From contig JAHFRP010000005.1 of assembly GCA_023266195.1 (NCBI GenBank), positions 62,001 through 126,000 on the forward strand: a stretch of DNA of 64,000 bases, read 5' to 3'. The position numbers and the translations under genes are program-made. This document shows, piece by piece, positions 20,902 through 58,325 of the stretch (the stretch's first letter is position 1; each line of letters opens with the position of its first letter). The notes under the pieces were generated by a model that did no database searches, was not told the DNA's origin, and worked only from the letters and a program-made list of their open reading frames with translations. The DNA comes from Sulfuricella sp. (GTDB lineage: Bacteria > Pseudomonadota > Gammaproteobacteria > Burkholderiales > Sulfuricellaceae).

Positions 20902-21027
20902 CGAGAATTTGCGGACTTGTCTTTAAAAAAGTAACATAATTTTATTATATTTTGCTAATGATCGCATTATACTTATTTTCCCACCTCGGTATCCTCAATC
21001 ATAGACCACAAGCACGAAGGGGCGCAG
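20902..21027. promoter_or_regulatory. Divergent AT-rich promoter region gpmI/arsR
   Basis: 126 bp, markedly AT-rich compared with the flanking genes. ATTATA at 20966-20971 reads as TATAAT on the minus strand toward gpmI. The GCTAAT at 20954-20959 is a half-site like that in the palindrome upstream of the RND operon, so autoregulation by the ArsR protein is possible (inference). Confidence 0.4.
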
Positions 21028-21345
21028 ATGGAATTAGATCAGGTTGAATTGATCGACAAGGACGAACACATCGAACAGGCTTCCCGCGCCATGAAGGCGA
21101 TGTCCCATCCGCTGCGGCTGAAGATATTGTGCGTGTTGGGCGACCGCGAGATCAGCGTGCAGGATATCGTCGAAAACGTCGGCACTTCCCAGAGCAACAT
21201 CTCCCAGCATCTGGCCATCCTGCGCGACAAGGGCGTGCTGCGCACGCGCAAGGATGCCAACCGCGTCTATTACCGCGTGGGCGACCCGCGCACCCTGAAG
21301 CTGATCGGCTTGATGCGCGACGTTTTTTGCGGCTTCGCGAAGTAA
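21028..21345 (+). CDS. ArsR-family repressor, probable SqrR/BigR/YgaV-type persulfide sensor
   Basis: Winged-helix repressor of 105 residues with the recognition region DIVENVGTSQSNISQHLAI. Metal-site cysteine pairs (CXC in helix 3) are absent. Instead C35 (LKILCVLGD) and C101 (RDVFCGF) are 66 residues apart, exactly the separation of the redox pair C42/C108 in Xylella BigR and C41/C107 in SqrR. In those proteins sulfane sulfur links the two thiols and releases DNA. It precedes an efflux operon with a candidate operator and a YgaP-like gene, consistent with this assignment. Confidence 0.8.
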   Translation: MELDQVELIDKDEHIEQASRAMKAMSHPLRLKILCVLGDREISVQDIVENVGTSQSNISQHLAILRDKGVLRTRKDANRVYYRVGDPRTLKLIGLMRDVFCGFAK

Positions 21346-21357
21346 CCGCCGGGTGTG

Positions 21358-21377
21358 GGTGCGGATTTATTCGCACC
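21358..21377. repeat. GGTGCG...CGCACC palindrome, member of a dispersed family
   Basis: GGTGCGGATTTATTCGCACC forms a near-perfect hairpin just after the regulator stop codon. Related copies are at 31901-31952 and 36358-36375. It may end the regulator transcript. Confidence 0.55.
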
Positions 21378-21413
21378 ATCAATGGGCTCCATACGAATAA
21401 ATTCACAATAACA

Positions 21414-21454
21414 TTGGACTTGAATCTAAGCGGTATATTAGAATTGGCTAATAT
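21414..21454 (+). promoter_or_regulatory. Predicted promoter and ArsR-type operator of the RND operon
   Basis: TTGGAC (21414-21419) and TATTAG (21436-21441) with a 16-bp spacer form a plausible promoter. The -10 box lies inside a perfect 7-6-7 palindrome, ATATTAG-AATTGG-CTAATAT, at 21435-21454. Repressor binding there would block polymerase. Start codon and AAGGGGG follow directly. Confidence 0.6.
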
Positions 21455-21469
21455 TCAATTAAGGGGGCG

Positions 21470-22564
21470 ATGGTGCGGAGATTGAGCTGGACGCTGCTGG
21501 GGGTTTTGCTGATCTCGCCGGCCCAGGCGGCGTTGCCGTTCGCCACGGCGACGGTGGAGCTGCGCGAGGTGGACCAGACCTATGCCGCCGAGGCGACGGT
21601 CGAGGCCGTCAAGCAGTCCAGCGTGGCGGCCCAGATTTCGGGGCGCGTGGTCGAGGTCAATTTCGATGCCGGCGATGCGGTAAAAAAAGGCCAGGTGCTG
21701 GTGCGCATCGACGAGCGCGAGGCCGGCCATGCGGTGGCGGGCAGCGAAGCGGCGGTGGCCCAGGCGCGCGCCAGTTTGCAGAATGCGCGCCTCAACTACG
21801 ACCGCACCAAACAACTGCTGGCGCAAAAATTCGTCAGCCAGGCCGCGCTCGACAAGGCCCAGACCGAATTCAAGCTGGCCGAGGCGCAGCTTGCGGCGGC
21901 GCAGGCCAATGCGGGCCAGGCCGCCACCGCCAAAGGCTACACCGCCGTGGTGGCGCCTTACAGCGGGGTGGTCGCCGCGCGCCACGTCGAACTGGGCGAA
22001 ATGGCGAGCCCCGGCAAGCTGCTGATGACCGGCTTCGACCCGAAGGATTTGCGCGTGGTGGCGAGCATCCCGCAGTACAAGCTGGCCGAGGTGAGCCGCG
22101 CTTCCCGCGCCCAGGTTGAATTCCCGTCCCTGAACAAGTGCCCTAAAGGACTCCGATCCACTACGAGCCAAGAAACCGGCTCGTGTGGAGTCGTATGGAT
22201 TACGGCAAAGGCGGTGACCATCCTGCCGGCCGCCGATGCCCGGACCCACACCACCCGTGTGCGCCTCGACCTGCCGGAAGACGTCCGCGACGTCTATCCC
22301 GGCATGTTTGCCCGCGCTCACTTCGCCGTCGGGCGCGCGAAGAAGCTGCTGGTGCCTGTCGCCGCAGTCGTCCGGCGCAGTGAGGTGACCGCCGCCTACG
22401 TGGTGGATGCCAAGGGCAATGTCGCCCTGCGCCAGATCCGCCTGGGCGAACCCGCGGCGGACGCCATGATCGAAGTCTTGGCCGGGCTTTCCGCCGGGGA
22501 AACGGTGGCGCTGGAGCCGGTCAAGGCGGGGATGTTTTTGAAGGCAGCGAGGAGCAAGGAGTGA
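21470..22564 (+). CDS. RND efflux periplasmic adaptor (membrane fusion protein)
   Basis: HlyD/AcrA-like adaptor of 364 residues with an N-terminal signal (LGVLLISPAQAA), paired lipoyl half-motifs (SGRVVEVNFDAGDAVKKGQVL, then GVVAARHVELGEMASPGKLL) around an alpha-hairpin, and a beta-barrel. The stretch around residues 222-245 contains an extra cysteine-bearing segment encoded by a palindrome at 22149-22192, not typical of the family. ATG 21470 sits close to AAGGGGG; GTG 21473 is an alternative. It overlaps the permease frame. Confidence 0.88.
   Translation: MVRRLSWTLLGVLLISPAQAALPFATATVELREVDQTYAAEATVEAVKQSSVAAQISGRVVEVNFDAGDAVKKGQVLVRIDEREAGHAVAGSEAAVAQARASLQNARLNYDRTKQLLAQKFVSQAALDKAQTEFKLAEAQLAAAQANAGQAATAKGYTAVVAPYSGVVAARHVELGEMASPGKLLMTGFDPKDLRVVASIPQYKLAEVSRASRAQVEFPSLNKCPKGLRSTTSQETGSCGVVWITAKAVTILPAADARTHTTRVRLDLPEDVRDVYPGMFARAHFAVGRAKKLLVPVAAVVRRSEVTAAYVVDAKGNVALRQIRLGEPAADAMIEVLAGLSAGETVALEPVKAGMFLKAARSKE
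22149..22192. repeat. Palindrome inside the adaptor gene
   Basis: GACTCC...ACGAGCC (22149-22169) is followed after 8 nt by GGCTCGT..GGAGTC (22178-22192), an imperfect hairpin within coding sequence. It encodes residues that look like an in-frame insertion in the adaptor beta-barrel region. Confidence 0.5.
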
Positions 22565-25500
22565 AGAGTCAGGAGCAAAACCCGGTGGAGCCCGGCTCCT
22601 CGCCCCGCGCTCCTCACTCCTCACCGAACATGGGCGTCTCCGGCCGCATCGCCAAAACCTTCCTGCAATCGCAGATGACGCCGCTGATCGCGCTCATCGC
22701 GTTCCTGCTCGGCCTGTTCGCCGTGATGGTGACGCCGCGCGAGGAAGAGCCGCAGATCAACGTCACCATGGCGAACGTGTTCATTCCCTTCCCCGGCGCT
22801 TCCGCCAAGGACGTGGAAAGCCTGGTGGCGACGCCGGCCGAGCAGGTGCTGTCGCTGATCACCGGCATCGAGCACGTCTATTCCGTGTCGCGCCCCGGCA
22901 TGGCGGTGCTGACCGTGCAATACAAGGTCGGCGAGGACCGCACCCAGGCGCTGGTGCGGCTGTACGACACGGTGCAGTCGCACCGCGACTGGGTGTCGCC
23001 CAATCTCGGCGTGGGCGAGCCGATCGTCAAGCCGGTCGGCATCGACGATGTGCCGATCGTCGGTCTCACCCTGTGGACGGCGGACCCCGCGCGCGGCGCC
23101 TATGAGCTGCAGCAGGTGGCGCATGCCGCCGAAATCGAGCTGAAGCGGATCAAGGGCACGCGCGAAGTGAAGACGCTGGGCGGGTCGAGCCGCGTGGTGC
23201 GGGTGATCATGGACGCCGAACGGATGAACGCCTACCGCGTTTCCGCCCAGGATATCCGCGATGCGCTGCAGGTCAGCAACGCCTCGCAGCCGTCCGGCAC
23301 GCTGGTCGAGAACAACCGCGAGGTGCTGGTGCAGACCGGCACCTTCCTGTCCGGCAGCGCCGATGTGAAGCAGCTGGTGGTCGGCGTCGCCGACGGCCGG
23401 CCGGTGTTCATGACCGACGTGGCGCGGGTGGTGGACGGCCCCGACCAGCCCGGCCGCTACGTCTGGCTCGGCACCGGCCCAGCGGCGATGGGCAAAAAAA
23501 TTGCGGACAAAGGTGAATTCCCGGCGGTGACCCTGGCGGTATCGAAGAAGCCGGGCGAGAACGCCGTGGACGTGGCCGAGCGCGTCATCAAGCGCGTCGA
23601 GCAGCTGCACGGCACCATCATCCCCGACGGCGTTCATGCCACGGTCACGCGCAACTACGGCGAAACCGCCAACGACAAGGCGCAGAAGCTGATCGGCAAG
23701 CTGGTGTTCGCCACCGCCTTCGTGGTGCTGCTGGTGCTGGTCGCGCTGGGGCGGCGCGAGGCGCTGATCGTCGGCGTGGCCGTGCTGCTGACGCTGGCCG
23801 CGACGCTGTTCGCTTCCTGGGCGTGGGGCTTCACCCTCAACCGGGTGTCGCTGTTCGCGCTGATCTTTTCCATCGGCATCCTGGTGGACGACGCCATCGT
23901 GGTGGTCGAGAACATCCACCGCCGCCGCGAGCTGGAGCCCGGCAAGCCGCTTTCCGAGGTGATTCCCGAGGCGGTGGACGAGGTCGGCGGCCCGACCATC
24001 CTGGCGACGCTGACCGTGATCGCGGCGCTGTTGCCGATGGCCTTCGTCACCGGCCTGATGGGGCCGTACATGAGCCCGATTCCGATCAACGCCAGCATCG
24101 GCATGCTGATTTCGCTCGCCATCGCCTTTATCGTAACGCCCTGGCTGGCGCTCAAGCTCTCGGCGCACAAGCACGATGCGCCGAGCCATAGCGGCGCGGA
24201 GGGCCGACTGTTCGGCTTCTTCTCTGCGCGCCTGACGCCCTTCCTCAATCGCGGCGAGGGCAAGGCCAACCGCAGGAAATTGTGGCTGGCGATCATGGGC
24301 ATGATCGCGTTCGCCGTCCTGCTGGCGGTATTCAAGATCGTCATCCTGAAAATGCTGCCGTTCGACAACAAGTCCGAATTCCAGGTGGTGGTGGACATGC
24401 CGGTGGGCACCCCGCTGGAGCAGACCGCGCGCGTGATGCGCGAGATCGGCGGCTACCTGTCCACCGTGCCGGAGGTGACGGATTACGAAGCCTATGCCGG
24501 CACCGCCTCGCCGATCAATTTCAACGGCCTGGTGCGCCAGTATTACCTCAGGAACGGCAGCGAACTGGGCGACATCCAGGTCAACCTGGTGGACAAGCAC
24601 CATCGCGACCGCAAGAGCCACGAAATCGCCGCCGCGGTGCGCCCGGCCATCGAGCGCATCGCCGCGCTGCATCGGGCCAAGGTCAAGGTGGTGGAAGTGC
24701 CGCCGGGCCCGCCGGTGATGTCGCCCATCGTCGCCGAAGTGTACGGGCCGGACTACGAAGGCCAGATGAAAGTGGCCAAGCAAGTACGCGCCCACTTCGC
24801 TCAAACCAAGGACATCGTGGCGATCGACGACACCATCGAGGAAGATGCCGGCAAGTTCGTCCTGCGCGTGCAGCAAAGCAAGGCGGCGCTGATGGGCGTG
24901 GCGCAGAAGGACGTGGTGGCGGTGATGAAAATGGGCCTGTCGGGCGAGGACGTGACGCCGGTGCACGAGGGCGAATCCAAGTTCGAGGTGCCGGTGCGGC
25001 TGACGCTGGCGCCGGAGCGGCAAGGCAGCCTGGACGAACTGCTCAAGCTCGACGTGCGGGCGCAGGACGGCGCGCTGGTGCCCTTGTCCGAGCTGGTCGG
25101 CGTGGTGCCGGCCGCGCGCGAGAAAACCATCTACCACAAGGATTTGCTGCCGGTGGTGTTCGTCGTCGGCGACATGGCCGGCAAGCTGGACAGCCCGCTC
25201 TACGGCATGTTCTCCATCCGCTCCGCGCTGGCGGGGGCGAAGCTGGCCGAGGGCGGCAGCCTGGGCGACTATTTCATCCGCCAGCCGGACGACCACTACG
25301 CCGGCTACAGCGTCAAATGGGACGGGGAATGGCAGGTCACCTATGAAACCTTCCGCGACATGGGCATCGCCTACGGCGTCGGCCTGGTGCTGATCTACCT
25401 CCTGGTGGTGGCGCAGTTCAAGTCCTACGTCGTGCCGCTGGTGATCATGGCGCCGATCCCGCTCACCATCATCGGCGTGATGCCGGGCCACGCCCTGTTC

Positions 25501-25833
25501 GGCAGCCAGTTCACCGCCACCAGCATGATCGGCATGATCGCGCTGGCCGGCATCATCGTGCGCAATTCCATCCTGCTGGTGGATTTCATCAACATGCAGG
25601 CGAGAGAAGGCATGGCCTTTCAGGAGGCGGTGATCCGCTCCGCCAGCACCCGCGCCAAGCCGATCGTGCTCACCGGCCTCGCCGCCATGCTCGGCGCGCT
25701 GTTCATCCTGGACGATCCGATCTTCAACGGCCTGGCGATCTCGCTGATTTTCGGCATCTTCGTTTCCACCGTGCTGACGCTGGTGGTGATCCCGGTGTTG
25801 TATTACGCGGTGATGTACAGGAAATTCACCTGA
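22561..25833 (+). CDS. RND-family efflux permease (HAE1-like)
   Basis: Proton-driven inner-membrane transporter of up to 1090 residues. About twelve helices and two large periplasmic loops are visible: N-terminal helix TPLIALIAFLLGLFAVM, the central helix pack from about residue 380, and the C-terminal pack from about 940 to 1085. The DDAIVVVENIHRR segment carries the proton-relay aspartates. GTG 22561 overlaps the adaptor stop (GTGA). GTG 22585 and ATG 22630 are alternatives, and homologue-like sequence begins at 22630. No outer-membrane factor gene is adjacent. The substrate is unknown. Confidence 0.9.
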   Translation: MKSQEQNPVEPGSSPRAPHSSPNMGVSGRIAKTFLQSQMTPLIALIAFLLGLFAVMVTPREEEPQINVTMANVFIPFPGASAKDVESLVATPAEQVLSLITGIEHVYSVSRPGMAVLTVQYKVGEDRTQALVRLYDTVQSHRDWVSPNLGVGEPIVKPVGIDDVPIVGLTLWTADPARGAYELQQVAHAAEIELKRIKGTREVKTLGGSSRVVRVIMDAERMNAYRVSAQDIRDALQVSNASQPSGTLVENNREVLVQTGTFLSGSADVKQLVVGVADGRPVFMTDVARVVDGPDQPGRYVWLGTGPAAMGKKIADKGEFPAVTLAVSKKPGENAVDVAERVIKRVEQLHGTIIPDGVHATVTRNYGETANDKAQKLIGKLVFATAFVVLLVLVALGRREALIVGVAVLLTLAATLFASWAWGFTLNRVSLFALIFSIGILVDDAIVVVENIHRRRELEPGKPLSEVIPEAVDEVGGPTILATLTVIAALLPMAFVTGLMGPYMSPIPINASIGMLISLAIAFIVTPWLALKLSAHKHDAPSHSGAEGRLFGFFSARLTPFLNRGEGKANRRKLWLAIMGMIAFAVLLAVFKIVILKMLPFDNKSEFQVVVDMPVGTPLEQTARVMREIGGYLSTVPEVTDYEAYAGTASPINFNGLVRQYYLRNGSELGDIQVNLVDKHHRDRKSHEIAAAVRPAIERIAALHRAKVKVVEVPPGPPVMSPIVAEVYGPDYEGQMKVAKQVRAHFAQTKDIVAIDDTIEEDAGKFVLRVQQSKAALMGVAQKDVVAVMKMGLSGEDVTPVHEGESKFEVPVRLTLAPERQGSLDELLKLDVRAQDGALVPLSELVGVVPAAREKTIYHKDLLPVVFVVGDMAGKLDSPLYGMFSIRSALAGAKLAEGGSLGDYFIRQPDDHYAGYSVKWDGEWQVTYETFRDMGIAYGVGLVLIYLLVVAQFKSYVVPLVIMAPIPLTIIGVMPGHALFGSQFTATSMIGMIALAGIIVRNSILLVDFINMQAREGMAFQEAVIRSASTRAKPIVLTGLAAMLGALFILDDPIFNGLAISLIFGIFVSTVLTLVVIPVLYYAVMYRKFT

Positions 25834-25866
25834 TTCTTTTTGTGTTCAATCAAGTAGGAGAAAATT

Positions 25867-26085
25867 ATGACCGTCAACCGTATCGTGCGCGTCTTCGCGG
25901 GCTTTTTCGTGCTGCTGTCGCTCGGCCTGGGCGTCCAGGGCAGCCCGCTGTTCGTCAGCGCCGACTTCCTCTGGTTCACCGCGTTCGTCGGCGCCAACCT
26001 GTTCCAGAGCGGCTTCACCGGCTTTTGCCCGCTCGACACCATGCTCAAGAAACTGGGCGTCAGGGAAACCTGCGAATCCTGCTAG
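25867..26085 (+). CDS. DUF2892 / YgaP-like small membrane protein
   Basis: 72-residue protein with two hydrophobic helices (about residues 9-24 and 30-48) and the family signature around FTGFCPLDTMLKKLG. It corresponds to the membrane half of E. coli YgaP, whose other half is a rhodanese. The C-terminus CESC adds a vicinal-type cysteine pair. ATG 25867 follows AGGAG at 25856-25860. It lies 33 bp after the permease and is probably co-transcribed. A separate rhodanese follows at 26220. Confidence 0.8.
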   Translation: MTVNRIVRVFAGFFVLLSLGLGVQGSPLFVSADFLWFTAFVGANLFQSGFTGFCPLDTMLKKLGVRETCESC

Positions 26086-26107
26086 CGTTAACGAGAAGCA
26101 CGCGTAG

Positions 26108-26133
26108 GTCGGTTCCGCTGCGCTTGAACCGAC
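26108..26133. repeat. Third copy of the GTCGGTTCCGCTGCGC palindrome
   Basis: Same 26-bp unit as at 15756-15781 and 15865-15890, here extended to a GTAGGTCGG...CCGACCTAC hairpin. It follows the last gene of the efflux module and may terminate it. Confidence 0.75.
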
Positions 26134-26219
26134 CTACATTTTGCAGGCGCGGAAATTTGGAAGGTTGGCGGTAAAAAGTTATCATTGCCGGCGCCAAAGC
26201 AAACGAAGGAGAAAAGCAA

Positions 26220-26627
26220 GTGCAGTTTATCCAAAGCAATCTCGGCATCGTCCTGTTGGTCCTGGTCAGCGGCGTGATGCTGGTGTGGCCGTCGATCGGA
26301 CGGCGCATGTCCGGCGTCAAGGAAGTCGGCACGATGGAGGCGACGCAGCTGATCAACCACCAGAATGCCGTGGTGCTGGACGTGCGCGAAGACAGCGAGT
26401 TCTATGCCGGACACGTGCCGCATTCGGTGCACGTGCCGCTTGGCCAGTTGACCAAGCATGCCGAACTGGAAAAATACAAGAACCGCCCGATCATCGCCGT
26501 CTGCCGCAGCGGGATGCGCTCCGGGCACGCCTGCAGCGTGCTGCGCAAGAACGGTTTCGAACAAGTGTATAATTTGGCGGGCGGGATCAATGCCTGGCAG
26601 CAGGCGAATATGCCGATGGAGAAATGA
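26220..26627 (+). CDS. yibN: Membrane-anchored rhodanese YibN
   Basis: Single-domain rhodanese of 135 residues with an N-terminal membrane helix (NLGIVLLVLVSGVMLVWP). The active-site cysteine is C95 in AVCRSGMRSG, with the conserved DVRE and LAGGINAW motifs. It starts at GTG 26220, set by GAAGGAG at 26205-26211. The order yibN-grxC-secB-gpsA is conserved in E. coli, which supports the assignment. It would handle persulfide sulfur at the membrane (family knowledge; substrate unknown). Confidence 0.9.
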   Translation: MQFIQSNLGIVLLVLVSGVMLVWPSIGRRMSGVKEVGTMEATQLINHQNAVVLDVREDSEFYAGHVPHSVHVPLGQLTKHAELEKYKNRPIIAVCRSGMRSGHACSVLRKNGFEQVYNLAGGINAWQQANMPMEK

Positions 26628-58283: not shown

Positions 58284-58325
58284 TTGATATTTGTCAGTGT
58301 AATTATTAGAACATCCTGATATTCT
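58284..58325 (+). promoter_or_regulatory. Predicted class II FNR promoter of ccoGHIS
   Basis: TTGATATTTGTCAG (58284-58297) is a near-consensus FNR site. TATTCT at 58320-58325 is a candidate -10, giving a start near 58332 with the box centred about 41.5 bp upstream, as at ccoN. Confidence 0.65.

Follow-up and report, generated by a model that had tools for sequence, protein, structure and literature searches.

In a 64,000-nucleotide stretch of DNA from Sulfuricella sp. (“the window” below), a gene for a small ArsR-type repressor stands before an operon for a resistance-nodulation-division (RND) efflux pump. We propose that this one repressor has three direct targets—its own gene, the pump operon and a small RNA (sRNA) of family RF02278 encoded at another place in the genome—and that sulfane sulfur would release it from them. 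On the sequence data gathered here, we give this reading a probability of about 65%. The operator, its three positions, its conservation and its co-occurrence with ArsR come directly from the computation; binding by ArsR, repression and the ligand we infer.

In unstressed cells, the reduced homodimer of this SqrR/BigR-type protein would bind 16-bp ATTA-N8-TAAT operators. It would thus cover the core promoters of arsR, of the RND operon and, in trans, of the RF02278 sRNA, blocking RNA polymerase. As sulfane sulfur (persulfides or polysulfides) builds up, a polysulfide bridge would form between C35 and C101, and the dimer would leave the DNA. Both the pump and the sRNA would then be produced: the former would export a toxic compound, and the CUCCUCC loops of the latter would mask ribosome-binding sites, such that uptake and metabolism are slowed.

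The arsR open reading frame (21028–21345, + strand) encodes a 105-residue winged-helix repressor that scores 48 bits against PF01022 (HTH_5; cut-off 22). Its top relatives by sequence in the PDB are BigR, YgaV and HlyU. An earlier examination of the window from its letters alone (the sequence-only reading) had pointed to two cysteines spaced 66 residues apart, as in BigR and SqrR, and to the absence of metal-binding motifs. Both observations held. C35 and C101 are the only cysteines of the translated protein, with exactly that spacing, and each aligns on a cysteine of the three relatives (gaplessly for BigR and HlyU; with one insertion between the cysteines for YgaV). The sequence contains no CXC motif, no His near the C-terminus and hence no C-terminal His cluster. 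Against the NCBIfam BigR equivalog model (NF040642), the protein scores 76.8 bits, under the curated cut-off of 155; it is therefore a relative of BigR, not BigR itself. Its sequence thus supports assignment to the SqrR/BigR/YgaV/HlyU type of regulator, which senses reactive sulfur species (RSS), and by analogy the cysteine pair points to persulfide or sulfane sulfur as the ligand. Should ArsR sense RSS as its relatives do, reactive sulfur would release an export pump together with an RNA brake.

To gauge conservation, we used 80 named loci, the best of 242 by match; their hosts include Sulfuricella, Sulfurimicrobium, Thiobacillus, Sulfuriferula, Hydrogenophilus, Tepidiphilus, Gallionellaceae and many unclassified metagenome-assembled genomes. 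Both cysteines are kept in all 79 readable proteins (locus L140 begins inside arsR and was unreadable for the protein and upstream counts), as they are in all 23 additional close orthologues. Mean conservation of ArsR was 90%, compared to 71% for GpmI, with ArsR the higher in 79 of 79 loci, and it was better conserved than SecB in 43 of 43; these figures are biased upward because the named loci are the best matches.

The window holds exactly two exact ATTA-N8-TAAT sites in its 64 kb, at 20944 and 21437. The first, operator O1 (TTATTATATTTTGCTAATGA; 20942–20961, core 20944–20959, + strand), lies at the arsR promoter and is the predicted site of autoregulation by repression. Its matrix score of 21.1 is the second best in the window, the matrix having been trained partly on O1. 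The second, O2 (ATATTAGAATTGGCTAATAT; 21435–21454, core 21437–21452, + strand), lies at the pump promoter. Here the sequence-only reading had described a perfect 7-6-7 palindrome overlapping the −10 element of the next operon, and the palindrome is indeed exact: it overlaps a consensus-like promoter, TGGACT-18-TAGAAT (21415–21444), whose −10-like TAGAAT occupies 21439–21444. O1, part of which lies beyond the interval then noted, had been missed. Among 5000 dinucleotide shuffles of the O2 intergenic region, the exact shape arose in 0.76% and inverted repeats of 7 bp with any gap from 0 to 12 in 9.3%. Taken alone, the palindrome is only moderately improbable; it convinces because it is conserved in relatives. 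ArsR probably represses the RND operon through it. The third-best operator-like score in the window, 13.1, belongs to TTATTAGAACATCCTGATAT at 58303–58322.

In the Sulfuricella family, arsR occurs in 21 of 22 genomes including our own, the other 20 copies being 89–98% identical to it, and the gene order gpmI-arsR-pump-YgaP-like-yibN-grx-trx-secB recurs. Of the 21 loci (our own included), 18 have an exact operator in the 200 bp before arsR and 16 have one in the 260 bp after it. Six genomes (L040, L047, L048, L049, L051 and L054) have a different RND pump, with a permease 39–40% identical to ours and an extra gene before the adaptor; the operator precedes the exchanged pump in all six. In G001, approximately 60 kb of one contig separate arsR from the pump and the YgaP-like gene; this pump, too, retains its operator.

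The named loci extend this pattern. At a matrix score of at least 8, an operator lies downstream of arsR in 36 of the 42 loci that have the orthologous (type A) pump and in 20 of 22 with a different RND (type B) pump, i.e., in 56 of the 64 pump-bearing loci. It was found in one of 15 scorable loci with neither pump; that exception, L080, ends 245 bases past arsR, and L120, with a downstream region of 20 bases, was left out of this class. Shuffled regions reached the same score in 11 of 1580 cases.

The third operator was first met in a near-consensus pattern search of the family genomes. In our own genome, it (G000:C15:229090–229107, equivalent to L055:7091–7108) covers the −10 element of a TTGCAA-17-GATAAT promoter, and the site TATTAGNNAATNCTAATA or its reverse is present in 13 of 14 g1 and g2 genomes (by list inspection, nine being read as sequence), G013 among them. 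Downstream of it lie approximately 100 nt that contain GTTGTCTCCTCCATCCTCC and a GC-rich hairpin that has a run of Ts. The Rfam covariance model identified an RF02278 RNA at L055:7145–7210, with 54.3 bits against a cut-off of 50. This RNA has a sigma70-like promoter, the CUCCUCC sequence complementary to ribosome-binding sites and a terminator-like hairpin, and it folds better than 200 of 200 shuffles (z = −4.86). In the same Rfam scan, L058 and L060 fell under the RF02278 gathering score, and the window itself gave no Rfam match at gathering score. In several Sulfuricella-type genomes, the sRNA is followed by a gene for a DUF6016 protein (PF19480; L055:7253–7750), which was not seen after the sRNA in G001. 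A search for sRNA targets with the pattern GGAGACAA-N1-9-ATG gave six occurrences in our own genome vs. one for a control pattern, which is too weak for a claim; by eye, they include NrdB-like and ABC ATPase genes.

Does the operator accompany this RNA more widely? In a sample of 200 genomes from the order, RF02278 was present in 129 (74 above the cut-off) and ArsR in 79 at E ≤ 1e-25; genomes with no match at that level are counted as being without ArsR. An exact pattern (operator, 25–55 bases, CTCCTCC) had matches in 32 genomes. The place is a listed RF02278 match in 18 of these, and G096 has an RF02278 match unlisted by place; all 19 genomes are ArsR-positive. The remaining 13 look like chance. 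As a separate observation, ATTAGCGGGAACTAAT followed by a CTCCTCC stretch occurs in three g3 genomes (G014:C21:170007, G015:C1:263118 and G017:C17:358497), approximately 15–17 kb from arsR and at no listed RF02278 match.

We then scored 109 RF02278 promoters from 89 genomes, a subset of all matches (with G000, G003 and G004 taken in addition from other loci), using a matrix whose training set consisted of 33 arsR and pump sites of our own family and included no sRNA data. The operator was found in all 28 scored genomes with a close ArsR and in none of the 38 scored genomes without ArsR. The close group was set post hoc as the 30 best of the 79 ArsR-positive genomes, with E up to 1.8e-55; G096, which has the exact-pattern match, and G144 were not among the 28 scored. 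The threshold, 9.9, was taken from the score ranking, in which the top ArsR-less score was 5.1. The Fisher value for this association, 3e-19, takes no account of relatedness and is not to be read literally. For G015, the automatic best site lay at −103, and a site scoring 10.5 stands at the expected place. Three of the 32 promoters in close-ArsR genomes lack the site (L208, L212 and L222), each of these genomes having another copy with it. At three ArsR-less loci, the anchor was off its expected place (short contig), and at L182 it was absent. In the 33 positive promoters (29 genomes, 10 families), the mean is 1.55 bits at the eight core positions and 0.36 in the flanks, the former figure being inflated because the promoters were chosen for having the site.

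RF02278 was also found in 29 of 30 named genomes, with the operator at 25 of 30 RF02278 loci; those without it are L313–L317, of which L314–L316 are weak RNA matches and L317 is a second copy. Seven named genomes have an RF02278 match and no pump behind arsR. In four of them (L298, L304, L309 and L312), the RNA still has the operator, a possible reason for the retention of arsR where no pump follows it.

Several results weigh against the proposed three-target regulon. Only 40 of the 79 readable named loci have an operator scoring at least 8 upstream of arsR (19 of 41 with the type A pump, 17 of 22 with type B and 4 of 16 with neither), and four g3 genomes with the orthologous pump (L042, L045, L052 and L053) lack O2. 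Three of the seven pump-less named genomes have an RNA match with no operator; of these matches, two or three are weak. G013, a fragmented genome, has the sRNA site and no close ArsR was detected in it. The association counts are not independent because the close-ArsR genomes are related. Part of the conservation of the sRNA operator may reflect promoter function, since its left half overlaps the −10 region. The site is absent from G067, the next genome in ArsR rank after the close group, and it was found in only 3 of 26 scored distant-ArsR genomes (of 49 other ArsR-positive ones), although 14 of 19 distant proteins have both cysteines (20 loci were fetched and L337 was left out). In the other five, position 35 is Tyr (G135 L326, G094 L327 and G051 L329, all f31) or Ser (L330 and L333). 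The three f31 genomes nevertheless retain the operator at arsR and at one RF02278 promoter; this lineage may have lost the sensor chemistry while keeping the operators. With C35 gone from f31 and replaced by Ser in L330 and L333, the link to the sRNA does not need persulfide sensing everywhere.

This last point bears on the alternative that survives best, namely that the regulon is as described and the signal is another: ArsR would sense disulfide stress, electrophiles, organotin or peroxide, and the pump and the sRNA would form a general toxicant response. Several of the named hosts belong to genera known for sulfur oxidation, and we count this against it. On the other side, besides the kept operators of f31, most of the closest solved pumps are multidrug pumps, and tributyltin was earlier found to derepress the ygaVP operon (PMC9774250). 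We consider a different signal unlikely, though to be taken seriously.

Another possibility is that the site at the sRNA is conserved as part of the promoter, or serves a different regulator, with ArsR controlling only arsR and the pump. The overlap with the −10 element, the relatedness of the site-bearing genomes and the case of G013 all speak for it. However, a matrix built from arsR and pump sites alone finds the sRNA site, none of the 38 scored ArsR-less genomes has it at an RF02278 promoter, and the right half, which lies 3′ of the −10 element, is likewise conserved among the positive promoters, which were selected because they carry the site. We therefore regard this explanation as improbable.

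Equally improbable is the view of the sequence-only reading that ArsR acts in cis on a sulfur module to which both the RND genes and the rhodanese belong: the gene order in the window and the usual linkage of rhodaneses to RSS sensors (PMC10509353) favor it, but the rhodanese belongs to a yibN-grx-trx-secB block that also follows the pump-less arsR of L099, a promoter-like site precedes it, and the pump stands apart from arsR in G001. That site, at 26157–26185 between the YgaP-like gene and the rhodanese, has 9 of 12 consensus bases, with 0.1 such sites expected. The rhodanese was accordingly rejected as an operon member and is probably a mere neighbor. What stands of the earlier module is an ArsR of the RSS-sensor type as the probable repressor of the RND operon; autoregulation and the RF02278 target in trans were missing from it.

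The gene order that had been read after the palindrome is itself correct. The periplasmic adaptor, or membrane-fusion protein (21470–22564, + strand; TIGR01730 RND_mfp, 200 bits vs. a cut-off of 94.9), is followed by the type A RND permease (22561–25833, + strand; PF00873 ACR_tran, 504 bits), which, among solved sequences, is closest to RND efflux pumps (best E 1.1e-64). Next come a 72-residue YgaP-like transmembrane protein (25867–26085, + strand; PF11127) and the YibN-like rhodanese (26220–26627, + strand; PF00581). The YgaP-like gene adjoins arsR without a pump in L099 and is still beside the pump in G001. Within the adaptor gene, a palindromic repeat of 66 bp lies in frame (22136–22201, + strand); counting this copy, it has 21 matches in our own genome at E ≤ 10. 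It is also present in the adaptor of G011 and, in diverged form, of G007, and it is absent from that of G010. It resembles a mobile repeat that is tolerated within a protein.

Elsewhere in our own genome, the operator pattern is not confined to the three targets: there are 15 exact ATTA-N8-TAAT sites vs. six for the reversed pattern. Eight further sites were scored, of which four fell below zero and the others reached 11.3, 12.7, 15.2 and 20.0. The last is a palindrome at L067:4015–4034 (G000:C15, about 509014) before a FadL/OmpP1-type porin gene (PF03349). Scores at the same place range from 2.5 to 15.2 in six other members of the genus; the site was not seen in G015 (−9.1), and eight further loci were unreadable. 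The porin gene is a possible, weak fourth target. The 15.2 site precedes a gene that by eye resembles the porin gene. The sites of L064 and L065, also judged by eye, look like chance or mobile context and were set aside.

The proposed regulon may reach further. We lean somewhat toward the view that an RSS-sensing ArsR directly controls RF02278 sRNAs in a broad betaproteobacterial group (Sulfuricella, Thiobacillus, Sulfuriferula, Hydrogenophilus and relatives), such that reactive sulfur would apply a translational brake to metabolism, with interchangeable RND pumps as a second output. The strong conservation of ArsR may be due to the sRNA, as its core target, rather than to the pump. If the proposal is true, the sensing of reactive sulfur is tied to an RNA brake on metabolism, in a family of RNAs that reaches 129 of the 200 genomes sampled from the order. 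The analysis also shows a regulator whose operator has stayed in place where another pump has replaced the original one.

RF02278, named “Betaproteobacteria toxic sRNA”, comprises ncS27 and other double-hairpin RNAs of Burkholderia cenocepacia, which are related to S17 of Bordetella pertussis. The literature portrays relatives of the present RNA as metabolic brakes, and work quoted in PMC5688073 and PMC11722255 reports that over-expressed members slow growth. Over-expression of ncS27 attenuates growth and respiration (PMC5688073, PMC10987360). S17 affects approximately 92 genes, many of which have a complementary stretch close to the ribosome-binding site, and it impaired the growth of E. coli only modestly (PMC11722255). 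The cause of the accumulation of these RNAs has been called unknown (PMC5688073), and the S17 promoter was postulated to be repressed in one growth mode (PMC11722255). The third target described here matches the family in its CUCCUCC sequence and its terminator-like hairpin. The available parts of PMC5688073 and PMC11722255, in which the switch-on of these RNAs is left open, name no transcriptional regulator; the present analysis names a candidate repressor, its operator and a likely signal. Our literature search, in which some listings were followed only through cited papers, found no published report linking an RSS sensor to RF02278. As far as that search shows, the proposed RF02278 target is new, as are the common operator and the retention of that operator when the pump changes.

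The sensor type and its genomic linkage to RND pumps, on the other hand, are already known. RND pumps are listed, from gene neighborhood, among the likely targets of two-cysteine, sulfane-sulfur-responsive ArsR regulators related to sHdrR and SoxR (PMC12423496), which makes such a pump a less unusual output than the sequence-only reading had supposed. Linkage to RND pumps is thus held in common with those regulators; section 2.1 of that paper gives no operator, pump exchange or sRNA target, in contrast to the present analysis. SqrR, BigR, YgaV and HlyU are RSS-sensing ArsR proteins of cluster 4 in a sequence similarity network, with the cysteine pair in helices alpha2 and alpha5 (PMC10509353). 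Our protein resembles them in its cysteines, 66 residues apart at aligned positions, in its lack of a metal site and in a predicted 4-8-4 operator placed over a promoter; it differs in falling under the BigR cut-off of NCBIfam and in its predicted targets, an RND pump and an RF02278 sRNA. The published operator of RcSqrR is ATTC-N8-GAAT (PMC9774250). The operator predicted here, ATTA-N8-TAAT, shares its 4-8-4 layout and changes one letter in each half.

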